A DNA stretch of 64,000 nucleotides from Streptomyces sp. BA2 (GTDB lineage Bacteria; Actinomycetota; Actinomycetes; Streptomycetales; Streptomycetaceae), in contig NZ_WSRO01000001.1 in assembly GCF_009769735.1 (NCBI RefSeq), forward strand, positions 124,001 through 188,000, in the 5' to 3' direction. Under the pieces are notes generated by a model that was given only the letters and a program-made list of their open reading frames with translations, was not told the origin of the DNA and made no database searches. Both the position numbers and the translations under genes were made by a program. This document shows, piece by piece, positions 20,007-48,604 of this stretch. The stretch's first letter is position 1. Each line of letters begins with the position of its first letter.

Positions 20007-22484
20007 ATGACGGCATGGAACGCGGAGCAGAATGCGGACTTTCGTGGCCCGCTCGACGTCACCAGGGCGGCCACGGCGGTCCTCGACGCCCAGGGCACGG
20101 TCATCGGATGGAGCCCCGCGGCGGAGCGGCTCCTCGGTTACCGGCCGCCGGAGATCATCGGCCGGTCCTTAGCCACCTTCCTGTTACCCGACCCGGTGCC
20201 CTCTCCCCTCTCTCTGCCAGCCGAGTTACGGGGAAATGAGATCCGCGCCGCACGGCACCGGGACGGGCATGAGCTGATCGTCGCCACCGCGGTGTGTCCG
20301 CTGCCCGGCGACGGCACGGCCGCGCACGTCCTCGTCGCGACGGAGCTGAAGGACCTGCGGCAGTGGGAATCCGGGCTGGCCCTGTTACAGGGCCTGGCCA
20401 CCCAGTCGCCCGTCGGCCTGGGCATCTACGACACCGATCTGCGCCTGACCTGGTGCAACACGGCGTACGAACGGCAGATCGGACGCCCGTTCGCCGAGTT
20501 CCGGGGCCGTCGGGCCGATGAGCTGTACTCCGACGGAAAATTCGTGACCACGGGGCACCCGCCCACGCTCGACGCGGTCATGCGTCACGTCCTGGACACC
20601 GGGCAGCCCTTTCTGGACCTGCACTTCCAAGGCAAGCCCCCCAGCGACCCGGAAACGGACCACCTCTGGTCCTGCGCCTACTACCGGCTCCAGGACGCCG
20701 ACGGACACGTCTTCGGAGTCTGCGAGGACGCGTTCGACATCTCCGAACGCTACAAGGCCAAACGACGTCTTGCCCTGCTCGTCGAAGCAGGCCGCGGAAT
20801 CGGCACCGCCCTCGACGTACGGGTCACCGCCGAGAGGATCACCGAGGTGGCGGTACCGGAGTTCGCCGCCACGGTGACGGTCGACCTTGCGCAAGGGGTG
20901 CTGAAAGGCGAGGTTCCGGCCACGAGCCGCGCGGCGGCGACGTCTCTGGTGCGGGTCGCCCGCTGCCCCGCCGAGGAAGCCGAGCGGGTAAAGCCGGGAG
21001 AGCGGCCTCCTCGCTGCGGGCCCGACGCGTCCGACAGCCCAGCCGACCCCGAGCGCGCTGCTCCCTCTACCCCCGCGGAGTACCCGTCCCCCGCGGAGTA
21101 CCCGTCCCCCGTGGAGTACCCGCCTGGTTCGCCGCAGTATCGCAGCCTCTCCTCGGGCGGGCTCGTGCTCGACGACACGGTCCTGGTCGTGCCGCTGCGG
21201 GCCGAAAACAGCACCCTGGGACTCGTCACCTTCCACCGCGACGGCGCCGGTCCGGCCACCTTCGACGGCGGCGAAGTGGCACTTGCCGACGAGTTGGTCG
21301 CCCGTACGGCTGTATCCATCGACAACGCCCGCCGCTTCACCCGTGAGCGCACCGCCTCGCTCGCCCTCCAGCGCCAGTTGCTGCCGCAGCACGTGCCCGA
21401 GCAGTCAGCGGTCGAGCTGGCCCACCGCTACCTGCCCACGGACGACGAGACAGGGGTCGGCGGTGACTGGTTCGACGTCATCCCCCTGTCCGGCACCCGG
21501 GTCGGGCTCGTGGTCGGCGACGTGGTCGGCCACGGTCTGCAGGCGGCCGCCACCATGGGGCGACTGCGCACGACCGTACGCGCGTTCGCCCAGATGGACA
21601 TGGATCCCGTCGAGCTCCTTTCGCGGCTCGACGACCTGGTGGCGCAGCCGGCCGAGGAGCAGCGCAGCGAGCTGGGAACACCGGATGGGACCTACGCCGA
21701 TGTGACCACCGGGGCGACCTGTCTCTACGCGGTCTACGACCCGGTCTCCCGGCGCTGCGTCATGGCCAGGGCCGGTCACCTGCCGCCGGCGGTCGTCGCC
21801 GCGGACGGCCGGCCCACCTTTCCCGACCTGCCGGCCGGGCCGCCCCTGGGCCTGGGCGGCCTGCCGTTCGAGTCGATGGAGATCGAGCTGCCGGTGGGCA
21901 GCCTCCTTGCTCTCTTCACCGACGGCCTGGTCGAGGCGCGCGACCGCGACATCGACCACGGACTCGACACCTTGGCACGGGTACTCAGCGACCGGCACGC
22001 GTCGCTCGAAGAACTCTGCGACCGGGCCGTGGCCGAACTCCTGCCGAGCGGCTCGACGGCCGACGACACCGCCCTGCTGCTCGTCCGTACCCGCGAACTC
22101 GACGCCTCGCAGGTCACCGAATGGGAACTGCCCGCGGAACCCGTCGCCGTGCGCCGCGCCCGGGACCTGGCCACCCAGCAGCTTCACCAATGGGAACTGC
22201 AGGAGCTGACGTTCGCGACCGAACTCGTCGTCAGCGAGCTGGTGACCAACGCGGTCCGCTACGCCGAAGGACCGATCCAAGTACGCCTCATCCGTGACCG
22301 CACCCTGCTGTGCGAGGTCGCGGACAGGGGCCACACCTCACCGCACCTGCGCCACAGCGGCGAGGACGACGAAGGCGGGCGCGGCCTGTTCATCGTCGCG
22401 CAGCTCGTCCAGAGGTGGGGAACGCGCTACACCCCATCCGGCAAGACCATCTGGACCGAACAGGCCTTCCCCACGACCGGATGA
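20007..22484 (+). CDS. PAS-PAS-GAF-PP2C (SpoIIE)-HATPase regulator
   Basis: 825 residues. Domains in order: PAS (about 10-75, LDAQGTVIGWSPAAERLLGY), PAS (about 130-250, GIYDTDLRLTWCNTAYERQI ... DAFDISERY), GAF-like (about 255-455, interrupted by a Pro-rich insert with three AEYPSP/VEYPP repeats at about 354-371), PP2C/SpoIIE phosphatase (about 470-690; GGDWFDVIPL, GDVVGHG, FTDGLVEARD) and an anti-sigma-factor-type HATPase (about 705-825; ELVTNAVRYAEG, EGGRGLFIVAQL). Such proteins control sigma factors by dephosphorylating anti-anti-sigma factors while the HATPase acts as a switch kinase. Four TTA codons (20169, 20184, 20226, 20385) in the first 130 codons predict strong bldA dependence. No partner gene is adjacent. 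Confidence 0.88.
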   Translation: MTAWNAEQNADFRGPLDVTRAATAVLDAQGTVIGWSPAAERLLGYRPPEIIGRSLATFLLPDPVPSPLSLPAELRGNEIRAARHRDGHELIVATAVCPLPGDGTAAHVLVATELKDLRQWESGLALLQGLATQSPVGLGIYDTDLRLTWCNTAYERQIGRPFAEFRGRRADELYSDGKFVTTGHPPTLDAVMRHVLDTGQPFLDLHFQGKPPSDPETDHLWSCAYYRLQDADGHVFGVCEDAFDISERYKAKRRLALLVEAGRGIGTALDVRVTAERITEVAVPEFAATVTVDLAQGVLKGEVPATSRAAATSLVRVARCPAEEAERVKPGERPPRCGPDASDSPADPERAAPSTPAEYPSPAEYPSPVEYPPGSPQYRSLSSGGLVLDDTVLVVPLRAENSTLGLVTFHRDGAGPATFDGGEVALADELVARTAVSIDNARRFTRERTASLALQRQLLPQHVPEQSAVELAHRYLPTDDETGVGGDWFDVIPLSGTRVGLVVGDVVGHGLQAAATMGRLRTTVRAFAQMDMDPVELLSRLDDLVAQPAEEQRSELGTPDGTYADVTTGATCLYAVYDPVSRRCVMARAGHLPPAVVAADGRPTFPDLPAGPPLGLGGLPFESMEIELPVGSLLALFTDGLVEARDRDIDHGLDTLARVLSDRHASLEELCDRAVAELLPSGSTADDTALLLVRTRELDASQVTEWELPAEPVAVRRARDLATQQLHQWELQELTFATELVVSELVTNAVRYAEGPIQVRLIRDRTLLCEVADRGHTSPHLRHSGEDDEGGRGLFIVAQLVQRWGTRYTPSGKTIWTEQAFPTTG

Positions 22485-41497: not shown

Positions 41498-43183
41498 ATG
41501 CCTTCGACTCACTCCTACCTGCGCGCCACCTTCGGCGAGTTACGCAGACCGGGCATCCTGCGCCAGGATGCGCTCGCCTCGCTCGTCGTCTTCCTCGTGG
41601 CCCTGCCCCTGTGCATCGGGGTGGCCGTGGCGTCCGGCGTCCCGGCCGAACTCGGTCTGGTCACCGGCATCGTCGGCGGGCTGGTCGTGGGCTTCTTGCC
41701 CGGCAGCACCCTGCAGGTCAGTGGCCCTGCGGCCGGACTGACCGTGCTCGTCTTCGAGGCGGTGCAGACATTCGGCCTCGGGATGCTCGGCGCGATCGTG
41801 CTGCTCACGGGCGTGCTCCAGATCGTGCTCGGTCTGTTGCGCTGCGGACGCTGGTTCCGCGCGATCTCCGTCTCCGTCGTCCAGGGCATGCTGGCCGGCA
41901 TCGGGCTCGTTCTGATCTTCGGCCAGCTGTACACCATGGCCGGGATGCAGCAGCCACGCTCCGGCCTCGACAAGGTCCTCAACGCGCCCGGCCTACTCGT
42001 CCACGTGTTGCGGGACGGCGGTGCGCTGACCTCCGCCGCCGTGGGCCTGGGCACCGTCGCCGTGCTCGTTCTGTGGCCCAGGCTGCCCGCGCGGGCGCGG
42101 CTGGTGCCCGCGCCGCTGGCCGCCGTCGCGCTCGCCACCGGCACGGTCGCCGCGTTCCGGCTGGACGTGGTGAACGTGACGGTACGCGGGCTGTTGGACA
42201 CCATTCAGGTTCCGGGCCTGGATGATGTGGCCGCGCTGGGCGGGCTGACCGTCATCGGGACCGTCGTCGCCCTCACGCTCATCGCCTCCGCCGAGTCCCT
42301 CTTCAGCGCGGCGGCCGTGGACCGGATGCACAGCGGCCCCCGGACCCACTACGACAAGGAGTTGGTGGCCCAGGGGGTCGGCAACAGCGTGTGCGGGATG
42401 CTCGGCGCACTGCCCATGACGGCCGTGATCGTACGCAGCTCCGCCAACGTACAGGCGGGCGCGCGCACGGCGCTCTCACGCATCCTGCACGGCGCCTGGC
42501 TGCTGCTGTTCGCGGCGCTGCTGCCCGTGGCGCTCGGCTTCATCCCCCTCGCGGCCCTGGCGGGCGTCCTCGTGCACGCGGGCTGCAAGCTCATTCCGGT
42601 CAAAGAGATCCGCCAGCTCGTGCGCCTGGACCGAGGCGAAGCGGTGATCCTGGGTGCCACCGCCGTCGCGATCGTGGTGGCCAACCTCTTCGAAGGTGTC
42701 CTGCTGGGCCTGGTGATGGCGATGGCCAAGTTGGCCTGGGACACCTCGCGCATCCAGGTCGACGTACGCGAACTGACCGGCGGCCGACTGGCGGTGGCCC
42801 TGACGGGGTGCGCCACCTTCCTGCGGCTGCCGCGCATCCTGGAGACGCTGGAGGCTCTGCCGAAGGACCGTCCGATCGAGCTGGACCTCACCGGCCTGCA
42901 CCACCTCGACCACGCCTGCCGGTCCACGCTGGGGAGTTGGGCGGCCCGGCACAACGACGCCGGGATCGAGCCCGTCCGCCTGACCTCCGGTCCGGGCGGG
43001 AGCGTGAGTGCCGCGGCTTCGGCCCGGGACGCCGCCGCGCAGGCCAGCGCGCGGCTGCCCGGCGCCGTGGGTGTTGCCCAAGGGCCGTCCACCCGGCCGG
43101 CGCGGTCGGCGCGGGCGGGCGACGCGGGCGGGGGGTCAGGCCACGTCGATCCGGCAGAACGATCCGACGGGGGACGTGACTGA
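41498..43183 (+). CDS. SulP-family anion transporter with STAS domain
   Basis: 561 residues. About 10-12 membrane segments begin with ALASLVVFLVALPLCIGVAV and include the SulP signatures LVTGIVGGLVVGFLPGS, VSGPAAGLTVLVFEAV and ASAESLFSAAAVDRM. A cytoplasmic STAS-like domain (about 435-515, RLAVALTGCATFLRLPRILE, LDLTGLHHLDHA) and a disordered Ala/Ser tail close the protein. It imports sulfate or bicarbonate. It lies 240 bp upstream of the peptide gene in the same direction; if sulfate is the substrate it could serve Cys supply for that pathway, but its inclusion in the cluster is unproven. Confidence 0.88.
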   Translation: MPSTHSYLRATFGELRRPGILRQDALASLVVFLVALPLCIGVAVASGVPAELGLVTGIVGGLVVGFLPGSTLQVSGPAAGLTVLVFEAVQTFGLGMLGAIVLLTGVLQIVLGLLRCGRWFRAISVSVVQGMLAGIGLVLIFGQLYTMAGMQQPRSGLDKVLNAPGLLVHVLRDGGALTSAAVGLGTVAVLVLWPRLPARARLVPAPLAAVALATGTVAAFRLDVVNVTVRGLLDTIQVPGLDDVAALGGLTVIGTVVALTLIASAESLFSAAAVDRMHSGPRTHYDKELVAQGVGNSVCGMLGALPMTAVIVRSSANVQAGARTALSRILHGAWLLLFAALLPVALGFIPLAALAGVLVHAGCKLIPVKEIRQLVRLDRGEAVILGATAVAIVVANLFEGVLLGLVMAMAKLAWDTSRIQVDVRELTGGRLAVALTGCATFLRLPRILETLEALPKDRPIELDLTGLHHLDHACRSTLGSWAARHNDAGIEPVRLTSGPGGSVSAAASARDAAAQASARLPGAVGVAQGPSTRPARSARAGDAGGGSGHVDPAERSDGGRD

Positions 43184-43312: not shown

Positions 43313-43352
43313 TTGACTATCCATTGACATGCGCTTGACCTTGTATTTACCT
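43313..43352 (+). promoter_or_regulatory. Four direct repeats with 11-bp phase upstream of the peptide gene
   Basis: TTGAC occurs at 43313, 43324 and 43335, and TTTAC at 43346, each exactly 11 bp apart; the heptamers are TTGACTA, TTGACAT, TTGACCT and TTTACCT. One-helical-turn direct repeats are the layout of SARP activator sites and of the 11-bp units of Streptomyces PhoP boxes. They lie 73-112 bases before the ATG at 43425, in the right place for a promoter-proximal activator site. TTGACA at 43324 could also serve as a -35. Confidence 0.7.
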
Positions 43353-43424
43353 TCGGTCGGTGGTCCGACGAAGATCCATTTCGTTGCCCGTACCGCATAT
43401 CCCAGGCACTCGAGGAGGTCCGTC

Positions 43425-43577
43425 ATGGACAAGCTCATCAAGCAGATGACCCAGGACACCAACTGGTCGAAGTGGGTGGCCGCCAACTCGGCGCAGGGCG
43501 CCAAGGACGGCTGCATCAGCGCCACCCCGAAGGCCGGATGCATCAGCGTCGCCGGCAAGAGCGGCTGTATCTCCTGA
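43425..43577 (+). CDS. Candidate precursor peptide with three xxxKxGCIS repeats
   Basis: 50 residues; ATG behind a strong GAGGAGG. Residues 1-23 form a leader-like amphipathic stretch (MDKLIKQMTQDTNWSKWVAA). Residues 24-50 are three exact-length nonamers: QGAKDGCIS, ATPKAGCIS and VAGKSGCIS. Lys is fixed at position 4 and GCIS at positions 6-9; the last Ser is the C-terminus. This is the design of a multi-core ribosomal peptide precursor. It is followed 78 bases later by an ANL adenylating enzyme and further pathway genes. No lanthionine, YcaO, radical-SAM or MNIO enzyme is nearby, so the modification is unknown. A start at 43329 is possible but has no ribosome site. Confidence 0.8.
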   Translation: MDKLIKQMTQDTNWSKWVAANSAQGAKDGCISATPKAGCISVAGKSGCIS

Positions 43578-43655
43578 CCCACGCCCAGCCACGCCGGGGC
43601 CGCCGCCGTCCCCTCTCGGCGGCGGCCCCCACCCGCCACCCTCCACGGAGAACTC

Positions 43656-44882
43656 ATGAGCCCGCTGCCCAGCCCACACGTCATCGACCGGGTCCGGGAC
43701 ATCCCCCTCTACCGCGCGTCCATCGCCCAGGGAGACTTCCCCATCCTGGAGAAAACCGAGATCGCCCGTGGCTTCCCGGACAACTGGATGACGCCCGGCC
43801 TCGCCGCGGCGCTGGAATCGGGCGACGCGGAGTACGTCCTGTCGACCGGCACCAACCACGCCAGGATGCAGCTGATCCGGCCGCCCTACTTCCTGCTCCG
43901 CTCCTACTACCGGCTGTGGAGCGAACACCCCGACCTGCGCGCCACCTGGGAGGCGGGCGCCAAGCGCATCTCCCTGACCACCGTGCTCGCCACCGAGCAC
44001 GTCGCCCGCGTCAACGCCAAGAAGCCGGGCGCCACCCCGGGAGAGCGCTGGCTCGACGACCGTACGCTCTACCTCAACCGCACCCTCGACCCGGCCGACT
44101 GGGACGGAGCAGAGGTCCGCCGCATGCTCGCCGAGATCCATGGAATCAGCGAGGCCCACCCCACCGGCACCTACCATCTGGACTGCTCGGGGTACCACCT
44201 CGCCCACCTCGTCCAGAAGGTCGACGCCTGGGGGCTGTGGGACGAGTTCCCGCAGCCGGCCAGCATCGTCCACGCCTACGAGTACACCCCGCTGAACGTA
44301 CGCGCCCTGCTGCACCGGCACTTCGACTGCCCCATCGTCGACCTCTTCGGCAGCACCGAACTGGGCTACCTCTACTCCAGCGACCCCCACACCGGCCGCT
44401 ACCGGCCGCACCTGGACGACATGAGCGTCGAGCTCATCCCCGTCACCCCCGGCAGCGGCATCCACTGCCTCATCGTCACCAGCCTGCGCAACCCCTTCAT
44501 GCCGCTCGTGCGCTATCGCTCCGGCGACTGCGTGCGCACCGACGACGGCTCCGCCGACCCCGAGCGCATCGCGGCCTTCTGCGGCCGGGAGAAGGAACTG
44601 CTCGACGCGCCGGGCGGACCCGTCGCCCAGGCCGACCTCGACGCCCGCGTCCACGACGCGTCCGACCGCGTCTTCCTCGCCCAACTGCGCCTGTCCGAGA
44701 CGTCCGGCGACACCACCCTGCGCTACTCGACCTTCGACGGCACCCCGCTCGACGCGGCGCGGACCGCGCGCCTCGAAGGCCTCGTCAGTGAACTCACCGG
44801 CCGCCCCTGCACCCTGGAGCACCGGACCAACCTGCCGATCGGCCGCTCCGGCAAGTACGTCTGGCTGACGCGTGCCTCCTGA
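43656..44882 (+). CDS. ANL-superfamily adenylating enzyme (PaaK / F390-synthetase-like)
   Basis: 408 residues; GGAG upstream of the ATG. Adenylation motifs can be followed: a degenerate P-loop LSTGTNHARMQLI (about 67-79), YEYTP, A5 DLFGSTELGYLY (about 229-240), A7 LVRYRSGDCV (about 287-296), A8 FCGREKELLDAPGG and an A10-like NLPIGRSGKYVWL with the C-terminal Lys. Enzymes of this group (phenylacetate-CoA ligase, coenzyme F390 synthetase) activate carboxylates as acyl-AMP. In this context it could activate the peptide C-terminus or an acid to be attached to its Lys, Ser or Cys side chains. Shorter than standard ANL enzymes (~430-550). Confidence 0.8.
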   Translation: MSPLPSPHVIDRVRDIPLYRASIAQGDFPILEKTEIARGFPDNWMTPGLAAALESGDAEYVLSTGTNHARMQLIRPPYFLLRSYYRLWSEHPDLRATWEAGAKRISLTTVLATEHVARVNAKKPGATPGERWLDDRTLYLNRTLDPADWDGAEVRRMLAEIHGISEAHPTGTYHLDCSGYHLAHLVQKVDAWGLWDEFPQPASIVHAYEYTPLNVRALLHRHFDCPIVDLFGSTELGYLYSSDPHTGRYRPHLDDMSVELIPVTPGSGIHCLIVTSLRNPFMPLVRYRSGDCVRTDDGSADPERIAAFCGREKELLDAPGGPVAQADLDARVHDASDRVFLAQLRLSETSGDTTLRYSTFDGTPLDAARTARLEGLVSELTGRPCTLEHRTNLPIGRSGKYVWLTRAS

Positions 44883-44989
44883 CCGGTGCCGTACAGGCCA
44901 CATCCCCGCCGCCCCCACCGGACCGGCCGGCCCCCTCCTGTCCGCCTCCGCCTCCGCCGTCCCCTCACGCCCGAACAGGACCCCACCCC

Positions 44990-45517
44990 TTGACCACGCC
45001 AGCAGATCCCGCCCCCACCGCCGAAGACCTCCTGGGCAGCGCGCTGCACGGGGAGGTCGTCGGGTATTTCACCGCGAAGACGCAACACCACCGCACGCAT
45101 GTCGAGCACCAGGTGCGCGAGTGTCTGCGCTATCTGTACCTGGTCTCCCGCCACCCCGACCGCCTCGGCGGACTGTTCCTGCCGGTGGAGCAGGACATCG
45201 ACGAGATCTGGCACTTCCTCATCCTGCAGACCCGCGAATACCAGGAGCTGTGCGAACAGCGCCTGCCCGGCGGGCACTTCATCCACCACCGCAGCATCGC
45301 CTACACCGACTACCAGGGCGGCGGCAGGGCCGACGAGGGACGCCGGACCGCGGCGGAGGAGGCCCTGCGCTGGATTCCGCTCTACACCGCCGCGTTCGGC
45401 CCGTTCGACGAGGACGCCCTCCCGCACTGGACCATCGTCCGCTTCCTCCACCAGGAGATGGACATGAGCCTGGCTGAGATCTCCTCCCTGGAACCCTCCG
45501 ACGGGCCCACCGCGTGA
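44990..45517 (+). CDS. GRDP-like (glycine-rich domain-containing-type) small protein
   Basis: 175 residues. The N-terminal helices hold a repeated His cluster (TQHHRTHVEHQVREC), then DIDEIWHFLILQTREYQELC and GGHFIHHRSIAY, the conserved (V/I)DE(L/I)WHxxIL...Y...C.....F.HH signature of the GRDP-like family. The fixed His and Asp suggest a metal site, though no reaction is established for the family. Its stop overlaps the MFS start by 4 bp (GTGA), tying it to the transporter. It could be a tailoring enzyme or a chaperone for the GCIS peptide. Confidence 0.65.
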   Translation: MTTPADPAPTAEDLLGSALHGEVVGYFTAKTQHHRTHVEHQVRECLRYLYLVSRHPDRLGGLFLPVEQDIDEIWHFLILQTREYQELCEQRLPGGHFIHHRSIAYTDYQGGGRADEGRRTAAEEALRWIPLYTAAFGPFDEDALPHWTIVRFLHQEMDMSLAEISSLEPSDGPTA

Positions 45518-46785
45518 CCTCGGCGGCCCGCACCCCGCAGTTCACCGGGCCCCAGGTGCAACGCCGCATCCTGACCGTGCTCGTCGCCTCGCAGGCCCTG
45601 GGCGGCGCCGGAATGGCGGCGGGCATCACCGTCGGCGCGCTGCTCGCACAGGACCTCCTCGGCTCCACCGGCCTCGCCGGACTGCCCGTGGCCCTGTTCA
45701 CCGCGGGAGGAGCTCTCGGCGCGCTGCTCATCGGCCGGATCTCCGAGCGGTGGGGACGCCGCCCCGGGCTCGCCCTCGGGCACACGGCCGCCGCCCTGGG
45801 CAGCATCAGCGTGATCGCCGCCGCCTGGTCCCGCACCGTACCCCTGCTCCTGTTCGCCCTCTTCGTGTACGGCGCCGGCACGGTCACCGGCCTGCTCGCC
45901 CGGTACGCCGGAACCGACCTCGCGCCGCCCGAGAAGCGCGGTCGCGCCACCGGCACCGTGCTCCTGGCCACCACGCTCGGCGCGGTGGCCGGGCCCGCCC
46001 TGGTCGGCCCCACCGGAACCCTGGCCGATTCCCTCGGACTGCCCCGCCTCACCGGCCCCTTCCTGCTGGCCGCCGTCGCCTACACGGCCGCCGCCCTCGT
46101 CGTCGCCCTCGGGCTGCGCCCCGACCCGCTGCTGCTCGCCCGCAGGCAACACCAGGACGCCGCCGGGCCACAGGCGGGCGAGCCGCGCGTCCGCCGCATC
46201 GCAATGGGGGTCGTCACCGGAGCGGCCGTGATGATCAGCGGGCAGCTCGTGATGATCGCCATCATGACGATGACCCCGGTGCACCTGGTCCACCACGGAC
46301 ACAGCACACAGATGGCCGGGGTCGTGATCGGCCTGCACGTGGGCGCCATGTTCCTGCCCTCTCCCCTGACCGGTCTTGCGGTGGACCGGGTCGGAAGCCT
46401 GCCGGTGGCCGTGTCCTCGGGAGGCGTATTGCTCGCCGCCGGTCTCCTGGCCGCCCTCGCACCGCCCGCCGGAGCGGCAGGAACCGCCCTGCTCGGCGCC
46501 GCGCTTGTGCTGCTCGGCATCGGCTGGAACATGGCACTCGTCAGCGGCACCGCGATGGTCACGGAGGCGGCGCCCGCCGAGGCACGTGCATCCACGCAAG
46601 GTCTTGTCGACGTGGGGATGTCCCTCGCCGGAGCCACGGGCGGCATGGTGTCCGGCCTTGTCGTGGCGGGCGGCGGCTACCGCCTGTTGGCCGTCTGCGG
46701 CGGAGTGCTCGCGCTCGCCGTGATCCCCCTCGCGGCCCGCGCCGCCCGCCCCGGGCACACCGTCCCACGCCCGACTGCGAGTTGA
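45514..46785 (+). CDS. MFS transporter (drug/peptide exporter type)
   Basis: 423 residues from a GTG overlapping the preceding stop. Twelve membrane segments are visible, with the MFS loop 2-3 motif GRISERWGRRPGLALGHTAA (about 71-90). The length and evenly divided halves fit the DHA1-type exporters. As part of the four-base-overlap series it probably exports the product of the peptide pathway and provides self-resistance. Confidence 0.85.
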   Translation: MTSAARTPQFTGPQVQRRILTVLVASQALGGAGMAAGITVGALLAQDLLGSTGLAGLPVALFTAGGALGALLIGRISERWGRRPGLALGHTAAALGSISVIAAAWSRTVPLLLFALFVYGAGTVTGLLARYAGTDLAPPEKRGRATGTVLLATTLGAVAGPALVGPTGTLADSLGLPRLTGPFLLAAVAYTAAALVVALGLRPDPLLLARRQHQDAAGPQAGEPRVRRIAMGVVTGAAVMISGQLVMIAIMTMTPVHLVHHGHSTQMAGVVIGLHVGAMFLPSPLTGLAVDRVGSLPVAVSSGGVLLAAGLLAALAPPAGAAGTALLGAALVLLGIGWNMALVSGTAMVTEAAPAEARASTQGLVDVGMSLAGATGGMVSGLVVAGGGYRLLAVCGGVLALAVIPLAARAARPGHTVPRPTAS

Positions 46786-46867
46786 CGCCCCCGCCCGGCG
46801 GCGTGCCATGCACCCGCGGGGCCCAGGCTCCCCAGCCCAGCACCCCAGCACCCGTCAGGAGAACGGC

Positions 46868-48604
46868 ATGCCCAGCATCCCCCCGTCGCCGTCCCCGTCC
46901 CCGGCCCCGGCCACCGGTCCGCAGCTCGACGCCGTCGTGGTCGGGGCGGGCTTCTCCGGCCTGTACCAGCTGTACCGCCTGCGCGAACTGGGCCTGTCGG
47001 TCCGCGTCTTCGAGGCGTGCGACGACATCGGCGGGACGTGGCACCGCAACCGCTATCCCGGCGCGCGCTGCGACATCGAGAGCACGTCGTACTCCTACTC
47101 CTTCTCGCCTGAATTGGACCAGGAGTGGCAGTGGAGTGAGCGGTACGCGACGCAGCCGGAGCTGCTGCGCTACCTCCACCACGTCGCAGACCGCTTCGGG
47201 CTGCGCGCGGACATCACGCTGCGCACCCGCGTGACCCGCACGGTGTACGACGAGGACGACCACCTCTGGCAGGTCACCACCGATACCGGGGAGATGCTCA
47301 CCGCCCGGTTCGTCATCCTGGCCACCGGCTGCATGTCGGCCGTCAAGGAGCCTGACATCCCCGGCGCCGCCGCCTTCGAGGGCCAGGCCCTGCACACCGC
47401 CGACTGGCCTCGCGAGGGCGTCGACCTCACCGGCAGGCGGGTCGCGGTGATCGGCACCGGCTGCTCCGGCGTGCAGGCCATTCCGCTCCTCGCCGAGCAG
47501 GCCGCCACCGTCACCGTCTTCCAGCGCACCCCGGTGTACGCGCTTCCCGCCCACAACCGTCCGCTGTCCGCCGAGGAGAACGCCGAACTGAAGGCACACT
47601 ACCCCCAGTTCCGAATCGCCCAGCGGCAGTCCAGGGGCGGCACCGTCTTCGAACCGCCCACCCGGTCCGCCCTGGAGGCCGACGACGCCGAGCGCACCGC
47701 CACCTACGCGGCGGCCTGGGAGTCCGGCCTGCTCAGCGGCCTGCTGCGAACGTACAACGACATCCTCCTCGACCCGGCCGCCAACGAGACCGTCGCCGAG
47801 TTCGTCCGCTCCAAGATCCGCACCATCGTCACCGACCCCGCGACGGCCGAGACCCTGTCACCGCGCGGCCTGCCCTACGGCACCAAACGTCCCTGCCTGG
47901 ACAGCGGCTACTACGCCACGTACAACAAACCGCACGTCACCCTCGTGGACCTCACCAAGACCCCGATCGTGGAAATCACGCGAAGCGGCATCAGAACCTC
48001 GGAGCGGAACCACGCCGTCGACGTGATCGTCTTCGCCACCGGTTTCGACGCCATGACCGGATCGCAGATCGCCATCGACATCGTCGGCAAGAACGGCACA
48101 ACACTCCAAGAGAAGTGGGCCGATGGCCCTCGCAACCATCTGGGCCTCCTGTCGTCCGGCTTCCCCAACCTCTTCACCGTGATCGGCCCGCTGAGTCCGT
48201 CCGTGCTCAGCAACGCGGTGGTGGCCATCGAGCAGCACGTGGAGTGGATCACCGACTGCATCGCGCACCTGCGAGAGGGCGGCCTGACCGAGATCGACGC
48301 CACCGCGGCCGCCGAGGAGCGGTGGTGCGCCCACGTCGCCGACCTGGCCGGTCTGACGCTCTACCCGGCCGTCGCCTCCTGGTACACAGGGGCGAACGTG
48401 CCGGGCAAGCCCCGGGTGTTCCTGGCCTACGCCGGAGGCCTGGACCGCTACCGGGCGCAGTGCGACGCCGCCGCCCTGGACGGATACCGCGGTTTCACCC
48501 TCACCTCACTGGCGGACGTGGGATGGGGTCGTCCCAGGACGGGCCTTCTGCGAAATAGCGGCGGCGCCTCCGGTGGACCCCCGTACCCCCTACGGGATTT
48601 TTGA
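46868..48604 (+). CDS. Baeyer-Villiger-type flavin monooxygenase with foreign C-terminal tail
   Basis: 578 residues from the ATG at 46868 (AGGAG upstream). FAD motif VVVGAGFSGLYQLYRL, GGTWHRNRYPGARCDIES, the BVMO fingerprint FEGQALHTADWP, NADPH motif VIGTGCSGVQ and ATGFD are intact. It would insert oxygen into a ketone or oxidise a heteroatom (S, N) using NADPH, possibly acting on the Cys-containing peptide. The natural protein seems to end near GYRGFTLTSLADVG. The final ~25 residues come from a joined fragment of a glycine-rich gene read out of frame, so the C-terminus is chimeric, but all catalytic parts remain. Confidence 0.85.
   Translation: MPSIPPSPSPSPAPATGPQLDAVVVGAGFSGLYQLYRLRELGLSVRVFEACDDIGGTWHRNRYPGARCDIESTSYSYSFSPELDQEWQWSERYATQPELLRYLHHVADRFGLRADITLRTRVTRTVYDEDDHLWQVTTDTGEMLTARFVILATGCMSAVKEPDIPGAAAFEGQALHTADWPREGVDLTGRRVAVIGTGCSGVQAIPLLAEQAATVTVFQRTPVYALPAHNRPLSAEENAELKAHYPQFRIAQRQSRGGTVFEPPTRSALEADDAERTATYAAAWESGLLSGLLRTYNDILLDPAANETVAEFVRSKIRTIVTDPATAETLSPRGLPYGTKRPCLDSGYYATYNKPHVTLVDLTKTPIVEITRSGIRTSERNHAVDVIVFATGFDAMTGSQIAIDIVGKNGTTLQEKWADGPRNHLGLLSSGFPNLFTVIGPLSPSVLSNAVVAIEQHVEWITDCIAHLREGGLTEIDATAAAEERWCAHVADLAGLTLYPAVASWYTGANVPGKPRVFLAYAGGLDRYRAQCDAAALDGYRGFTLTSLADVGWGRPRTGLLRNSGGASGGPPYPLRDF

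Follow-up and report, generated by a model that had tools for sequence, protein, structure and literature searches.

The locus described here occupies positions 43313–48604 of a 64,000-nucleotide stretch of the Streptomyces sp. BA2 genome (assembly GCF_009769735.1, contig NZ_WSRO01000001.1, positions 124,001–188,000 of the forward strand), the whole of which we call the window. The assembly comprises 10.04 Mb in two contigs, and the window lies on the smaller one (C1, 602,338 bases). At the head of the locus stands a gene for a 50-residue peptide that ends in three copies of a KxGCIS unit, followed in the same direction by genes for an ANL-type adenylating enzyme, a GRDP-like protein, a transporter of the major facilitator superfamily (MFS) and a Baeyer–Villiger-type monooxygenase. 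This order, with a 4-bp overlap at the start of the transporter gene, had been given in a preliminary description of the locus, and the coordinates agree with it. The same description had reported an open reading frame (ORF) of 50 residues with a strong ribosome site and three 9-residue repeats, and this is indeed what is found: the forward-strand ORF at 43425–43577 is preceded by a GGAGG Shine–Dalgarno sequence (43414–43418) six bases before its start. Its translation, MDKLIKQMTQDTNWSKWVAANSAQGAKDGCISATPKAGCISVAGKSGCIS, together with the homologue searches, delimits a putative leader of about residues 1–22 and the units KDGCIS (43503–43520), KAGCIS (43530–43547) and the C-terminal KSGCIS (43557–43574), which follow one another at a 9-residue period.

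The distribution of the peptide was established from three samples. With the peptide as query, homologues were found in 30 of 246 same-genus genomes, its own included, at E <= 4e-10; the next match has E = 0.0135, and the tally of 194 matches at E <= 1 is noise beyond these 30. When the ANL enzyme served as the sole bait, 84,980 named genomes gave 120 pattern matches, 117 of which encode a relative; counts for bait-found loci refer to the best 80 of these 117. The third sample consisted of 394 genomes spread over the class, searched for the ANL and GRDP-like proteins. Seventeen of the 80 bait-found loci also occur in the first set and four in the class-wide set, the three sets together amounting to 95 separate loci, nearly all of them from Streptomyces.

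Across these samples the peptide gene is accompanied by the same two partners. Among the first 30 loci the ANL gene follows the peptide in 29 and the GRDP-like gene in 28, both incomplete loci (L032 and L036) being cut off by the end of a contig. In all 80 bait-found loci the 1 kb upstream of the ANL gene holds a short ORF with two or more GC[IVL]S units, and in 79 the GRDP-like gene lies downstream of the ANL gene, the exception (L118) being again a contig end. The ANL enzyme (E <= 1e-15) and the full-length GRDP-like protein pick out the same seven of the 394 class-wide genomes, and the peptide is present in all six besides our own; one of the six genomes belongs to another family, and its peptide has two units. 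ANL/GRDP loci without a GCIS-type ORF, which the preliminary description had named as evidence against its proposal, are therefore absent both from the best 80 and from the six other class-wide genomes; the repeats and the ribosome site, whose conservation it had also asked about, are kept in relatives, GGAGG standing within 16 nt upstream of the peptide start in 76 of the 80 bait-found loci. Mean identity between loci is similar for the three products (72% for the peptide, 71% for the ANL enzyme and 73% for the GRDP-like protein), and in one strain (L049, identical with L117) the latter two are joined in a single 572-residue ORF, which suggests that they act together. The conserved core of the locus is thus three genes: precursor, ANL and GRDP. 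Such constantly linked, dedicated enzymes are what is expected of a pathway for a ribosomally synthesized and post-translationally modified peptide (RiPP), and the ANL and GRDP-like proteins would be the ones that modify the peptide.

The peptide itself bears the marks of strong selection. A search of 5.8 billion proteins returned 60 relatives, annotated at most as 'hypothetical protein', from hosts that include Streptomyces, Kitasatospora, Nocardia mexicana and metagenome sources. The first 30 loci, the 80 bait-found loci and these 60 proteins together yield 140 distinct peptides, the six class-wide genomes not being counted in. The peptides contain two (8 peptides), three (126) or four (6) GC[IV]S units; in 414 of the 418 units a Lys stands two residues before the Gly, 404 units are spelled GCIS, and 418 of 421 Cys residues lie inside the motif. 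An exact GCIS forms the C-terminus of 134 peptides. The residue separating Lys and Gly is variable (S, D, A, T, N, E and others), and the spacers between units consist chiefly of Ala, Pro, Thr, Gly and Val. Neighbouring units are nine residues apart in 234 of 278 pairs, with extremes of 6 and 17, so that of the xxxKxGCIS repeat originally proposed the KxGC[I/V]S unit stands as the invariant part and the fixed spacer does not. Ratios of nonsynonymous to synonymous substitution rates (dN/dS), a crude measure here since every pair among 30 related loci was pooled, rise from 0.02 in the last unit and 0.06 in the first to 0.14 in the first spacer (pairs of equal length) and 0.50 in the leader, which makes the KxGCIS units the most constrained part of the peptide. 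The leader nonetheless has fixed points of its own, with W14, W17, N21 and S22 invariant across 81 leaders. The small ORF is therefore real and under strong selection; its homologues, the conservation of its units and the constant linkage to the ANL gene rule out a chance ORF. A short gene-encoded precursor with a conserved N-terminal part and a separate core region is the layout of a RiPP precursor, and the N-terminal part probably works as the leader.

The ANL enzyme (43656–44882, forward strand, 408 residues) is recognizable by profile, motif and fold comparison. No Pfam model matches it at E <= 0.1, and its NCBIfam matches fall far under their cut-offs (15.7 bits for the BagE/FevW model, whose cut-off is 800). 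A profile built from it, searched against the PDB, retrieves PaaK-like enzymes, the best being ClxA (9s3l, E 1.4e-7), and its fold agrees with those of PaaK1, ClxA and NatL2, which places it among the PaaK-like enzymes. The adenylation motifs are intact, including the C-terminal catalytic Lys (SGKYxWL in 74 of 79 sequences, STELGY in 78 of 79). It shares fold and motifs with the ligases PaaK1, ClxA, NatL2 and AjiA1, but differs from them in sequence (14–19% identity) and in that a peptide gene and a GRDP-like gene always stand beside it. Some PaaK-like family members ligate without coenzyme A (CoA), and NatL2 and BagE/FevW reportedly couple acids to hydroxyl or amine groups of natural products; by analogy, direct transfer of an acyl group onto a peptide side chain would be a reasonable activity for the ANL enzyme.

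The GRDP-like protein (44990–45517, forward strand, 175 residues, TTG start) is the other constant neighbour, and a confident model (pLDDT 87.6) shows it as all-helical. Profile and structure searches found neither solved relatives nor structural matches of useful score. The protein belongs to a homologue family with shared invariant residues: D71, W74, H75, L79, Y84, C88, G94 and H100 are invariant in 50 of 50 aligned rows, ten of them distant. The window protein itself has no match at E <= 0.1 to the Pfam model of the GRDP-like domain (PF07173), and the score of 22.5 reached by a distant relative in L102 falls just short of the cut-off, 22.7; precomputed annotation of the listed homologues gives PF27765. 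The invariant residues could well form a metal site or an active site. Distant GRDP-domain proteins from other genera of the class carry Cys-rich C-terminal tails (L097:8040–8465, L104:8285–8731 and L105:7614–8111), and their genes adjoin one that looks by eye like an aminoglycoside-phosphotransferase-type kinase; such proteins are possibly peptide precursors with large leaders. Another GRDP-like protein (L102:5116–5934) has about four tandem copies of a ASADRCAVAFESE-like repeat ahead of its GRDP part.

Expression signals flank the peptide gene. The position 43313 at which the preliminary description let the locus begin coincides with the foremost TTGAC box in a set of three (43313, 43324 and 43335, an 11-bp period) within the promoter region at 43313–43353 of the forward strand, where a -35 element TTGACA (43324–43329) is separated by 18 bp from a -10 element TACCTT (43348–43353). 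The pattern TTGAC-N18-20-TANNNT occurs within 160 bp upstream of the peptide in 27 of the first 30 loci, against 0.4% of shuffles built from 2-base blocks, and within 200 bp upstream in 75 of the 80 bait-found loci. A further TTG box 10–12 bp downstream of the first, followed by TTTACNTTC, is present in 15 of the first 30. A TTTAC also stands in register with the three TTGAC boxes of the window, in exact 11-bp steps overlapping the promoter, and this array resembles the binding sites of SARP-regulated promoters. Between the precursor and the ANL gene lies a G+C-rich stem-loop (43596–43629, forward strand). The gap between the two genes ranges from 69 to 344 nt across loci. A stem-loop scoring above the best of 20 shuffles was found in 47 of 81 such intergenic stretches (mean score 11.2 versus 6.3; stretches limited to 140 nt, shuffles keeping base content alone). 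In RiPP operons a stem-loop after the precursor permits synthesis of excess precursor.

The remaining neighbours are less constant. The MFS transporter (45514–46785, forward strand, 423 residues, PF07690) has a relative in 57 of the 75 bait-found loci with room for one; an exporter as a universal member can be dismissed for this family, since the other 18 lack it, other exporter families not having been searched. The flavin monooxygenase (46868–48604, forward strand) contains FEGQALHTADWP, which fits FxGxxxHxxxWP, the fingerprint of type I Baeyer–Villiger monooxygenases, and of the NCBIfam models the one for PtlE scores highest, at 287 bits against a cut-off of 1100. At a threshold of 40% identity over half the length, a Baeyer–Villiger gene was found near only 4 of the 80 bait-found loci (70–88% identity to that of the window) and in one of the 29 first relatives (L031), and so cannot belong to the shared chemistry. 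It is ruled out as a core member, being absent beside 76 of 80 loci; where a strain has it, it may act as a tailoring enzyme. Upstream of the locus, a SulP anion transporter gene (41498–43183, forward strand, PF00916) is a frequent neighbour and a possible dedicated partner. Among the 80 bait-found loci (L115–L194), SulP is near in 45 and a gene that by eye looks carbonic-anhydrase-like in 44, in several arrangements. In a comparison of 26 peptide-bearing genomes out of the 30 (the fragmented G081, G102 and G017 were left aside, as was G181) with 20 peptide-free ones, a SulP copy of at least 60% identity was also present in 15 of the latter. SulP lies directly upstream in the same direction at ten loci, six with the promoter and four without; these four are four of the five promoterless bait-found loci, and in them the SulP gene ends 63–264 bp upstream; read-through or co-transcription may occur there. 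Elsewhere in the window, an 18-bp tandem repeat (2.9 copies, 97% match) occupies 21070–21122.

How does the locus compare with known peptide pathways? The absence of YcaO, LanC-like, radical-SAM and MNIO genes nearby, noted earlier, is upheld by profile searches of the genome, in which none of the matches listed lies inside the window. Each occurs elsewhere in the genome; the only such match on the window's contig is a radical-SAM one at C1:55561, outside the window. Two of these matches, one of the MNIO family (264 bits) and the weaker second one for YcaO, lie far away (C2:7053046–7053840 and C2:9238555–9239484) and could mark other RiPP loci. Pearlins, such as 3-thiaglutamate made on the 50-residue scaffold TglA, likewise involve a peptide of about 50 residues with Cys as a likely site of chemistry, but add one C-terminal residue where our peptide has several internal units; the window has no MNIO match, and a PEARL was not recognized, no profile search having been aimed at it. 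Multi-core precursors such as those of microviridins and other graspetides, cyanobactins and dikaritins also combine a leader with repeated units, adjoining enzymes and often an exporter. Here, in contrast, the units are near-invariant between species and the adjoining enzyme belongs to the ANL ligases, the window having no match to YcaO, LanC-like, radical-SAM or MNIO proteins (ATP-grasp enzymes were not searched). One conserved small product from a conserved precursor is likewise expected of the pyrroloquinoline quinone (PQQ)/mycofactocin type, from which our locus differs in having several units per precursor and no radical-SAM match in the window. To our knowledge, no RiPP class is built on an ANL ligase. 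Titles and abstract openings of the open-licence literature describe neither a KxGCIS peptide, nor GRDP gene clusters, nor ANL/PaaK-type enzymes with RiPP precursors, and the main text of PMC7794033 contains none of the strings 'AMP-binding', 'CoA ligase' and 'adenylat'.

What could the three core genes do together? We favour, with a probability of roughly 60%, a compact RiPP-type pathway with the core precursor–ANL–GRDP, in which the ANL enzyme forms a bond on the KxGC[I/V]S units. The N-terminal 22 residues, with the invariant W14, W17, N21 and S22, would serve as the recognition leader, and the two to four units, connected by flexible Ala/Pro/Thr/Gly spacers, would each represent the same small, conserved product or site of modification. 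The ANL enzyme would convert a carboxylate to an acyl-AMP and hand the acyl group directly to a nucleophile of the unit, in the manner of the CoA-independent members of its family. Two routes appear likeliest. In one, the Ser carboxylate, freed at the end of the unit, would close a ring onto the side-chain amine of the Lys; such a ring would account for a K-x-G-C-I-S spacing that stays constant while x varies, and one ring per unit fits the fixed Lys and Ser at the unit ends and the carboxylate-activating enzyme. In the other, which fits almost as well, the Lys or Cys would be acylated by an outside acid. The GRDP-like protein would work on the same substrate, either as a docking partner or in a second step. 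As no protease was recognized by eye in the locus, cutting must fall to a host protease, which we assume to release the units, or to the GRDP-like protein; export would in most strains be the task of the MFS transporter. Since the core varies so little between species, a single product is probably common to them all.

Several observations weigh against this reading. The leader is more variable than the units, the opposite of most RiPP precursors. Some peptides have damaged units (GYIS, GRIS, GRAS, GCIC, GCIF), which suggests that the units act independently, while two distinct peptides end in CISR and one relative from the class-wide set extends beyond its last unit, so that the C-terminal Ser carboxylate is not ready-made everywhere. 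An acceptor other than CoA for the ANL enzyme is a proposal by analogy, and the role of the GRDP-like protein is a guess, since its model resembles nothing solved. No peptidase was recognized by eye, no profile search having been made, among the 18 families recurring in at least three of the first 30 loci, around which genes were called with a simple script that missed or extended some of them. The linkage count stops at the best 80, leaving 37 weaker ANL relatives outside. Finally, product, modification and enzyme activity are all predicted from the genes.

The peptide might instead be a reusable carrier, the ANL enzyme loading an acid on the Cys (or Lys) of each unit, later reactions taking place on the scaffold and the peptide being recycled after release of the small product, as in pearlin or carrier-protein chemistry. 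Solved PaaK-like relatives bind or activate aryl acids (going by entry titles, 3-amino-4-hydroxybenzoic acid and its adenylate in ClxA and salicylic acid in NatL2), several equal attachment sites would be suitable for such a role, and near-invariant units mean that the peptide does not diversify. A plain thioester carrier, however, has no need for a Lys conserved as strongly as the Cys, and neither an acid-making gene (by eye, first 30 loci) nor a PEARL-type ligase (no profile run) was recognized among the recurring neighbours. We consider a carrier unlikely. The full scheme of the preliminary description, in which cores activated by the ANL enzyme are then oxygenated by the Baeyer–Villiger enzyme, fares considerably worse and appears very improbable. 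Three loci, L115, L120 and L168, do share the window's arrangement, in which the gene follows the MFS gene in the same direction (74–88% identity to the window's), and in L191 a 70%-identical copy lies upstream; the great majority of loci lack it, and the 50%-identical copy at L093 is on the opposite strand. What stands of that description as a whole is a multi-unit RiPP-type precursor beside dedicated enzymes and often an exporter, without the oxygenation step.

Two further explanations do away with peptide modification altogether. The concentration of Cys in the motif, the invariant His and Cys of the GRDP-like family and the frequent SulP and carbonic-anhydrase-like neighbours would be in keeping with a small metal- or redox-binding protein of metallothionein-like kind, the ANL and GRDP-like proteins serving some other metal-linked function. 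Yet Lys, Gly, Ile/Val and Ser are fixed as strongly as the Cys, single, widely spaced Cys residues are unlike CxxC metal sites, and the constant linkage to an acid-activating ligase would be left unexplained, all of which renders this improbable. Still harder to credit, and the least probable of the alternatives, is a Cys-sensing attenuator, an upstream ORF controlling the downstream genes. The position ahead of the ANL gene, the stem-loop often found between them and the recurring Cys codons recall such a device, but selection covers the entire KxGCIS word and the Trp-containing leader, the gap to the ANL gene is not constant, and the Cys attenuators described so far rely on consecutive Cys codons.

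The RiPP-type pathway thus remains our preferred explanation, and the locus represents a candidate RiPP class that is well supported by genomics. That it is a new class in the full sense, with an ANL-made bond on a ribosomal peptide, whether KxGCIS ring or Lys/Cys acylation, and a GRDP-fold partner helping, is a tentative proposal to which we give somewhat less than even odds. If true, about 100 or more Streptomyces species would make a single conserved small molecule, perhaps with a signalling or cofactor function. The locus, which is compact and readily expressed and tested, would extend the bond-forming repertoire of peptide engineering and could reveal what a GRDP-like protein does. A conserved three-gene locus with a near-constant core points to a shared molecule with a physiological role in these bacteria rather than to a diversified antibiotic.

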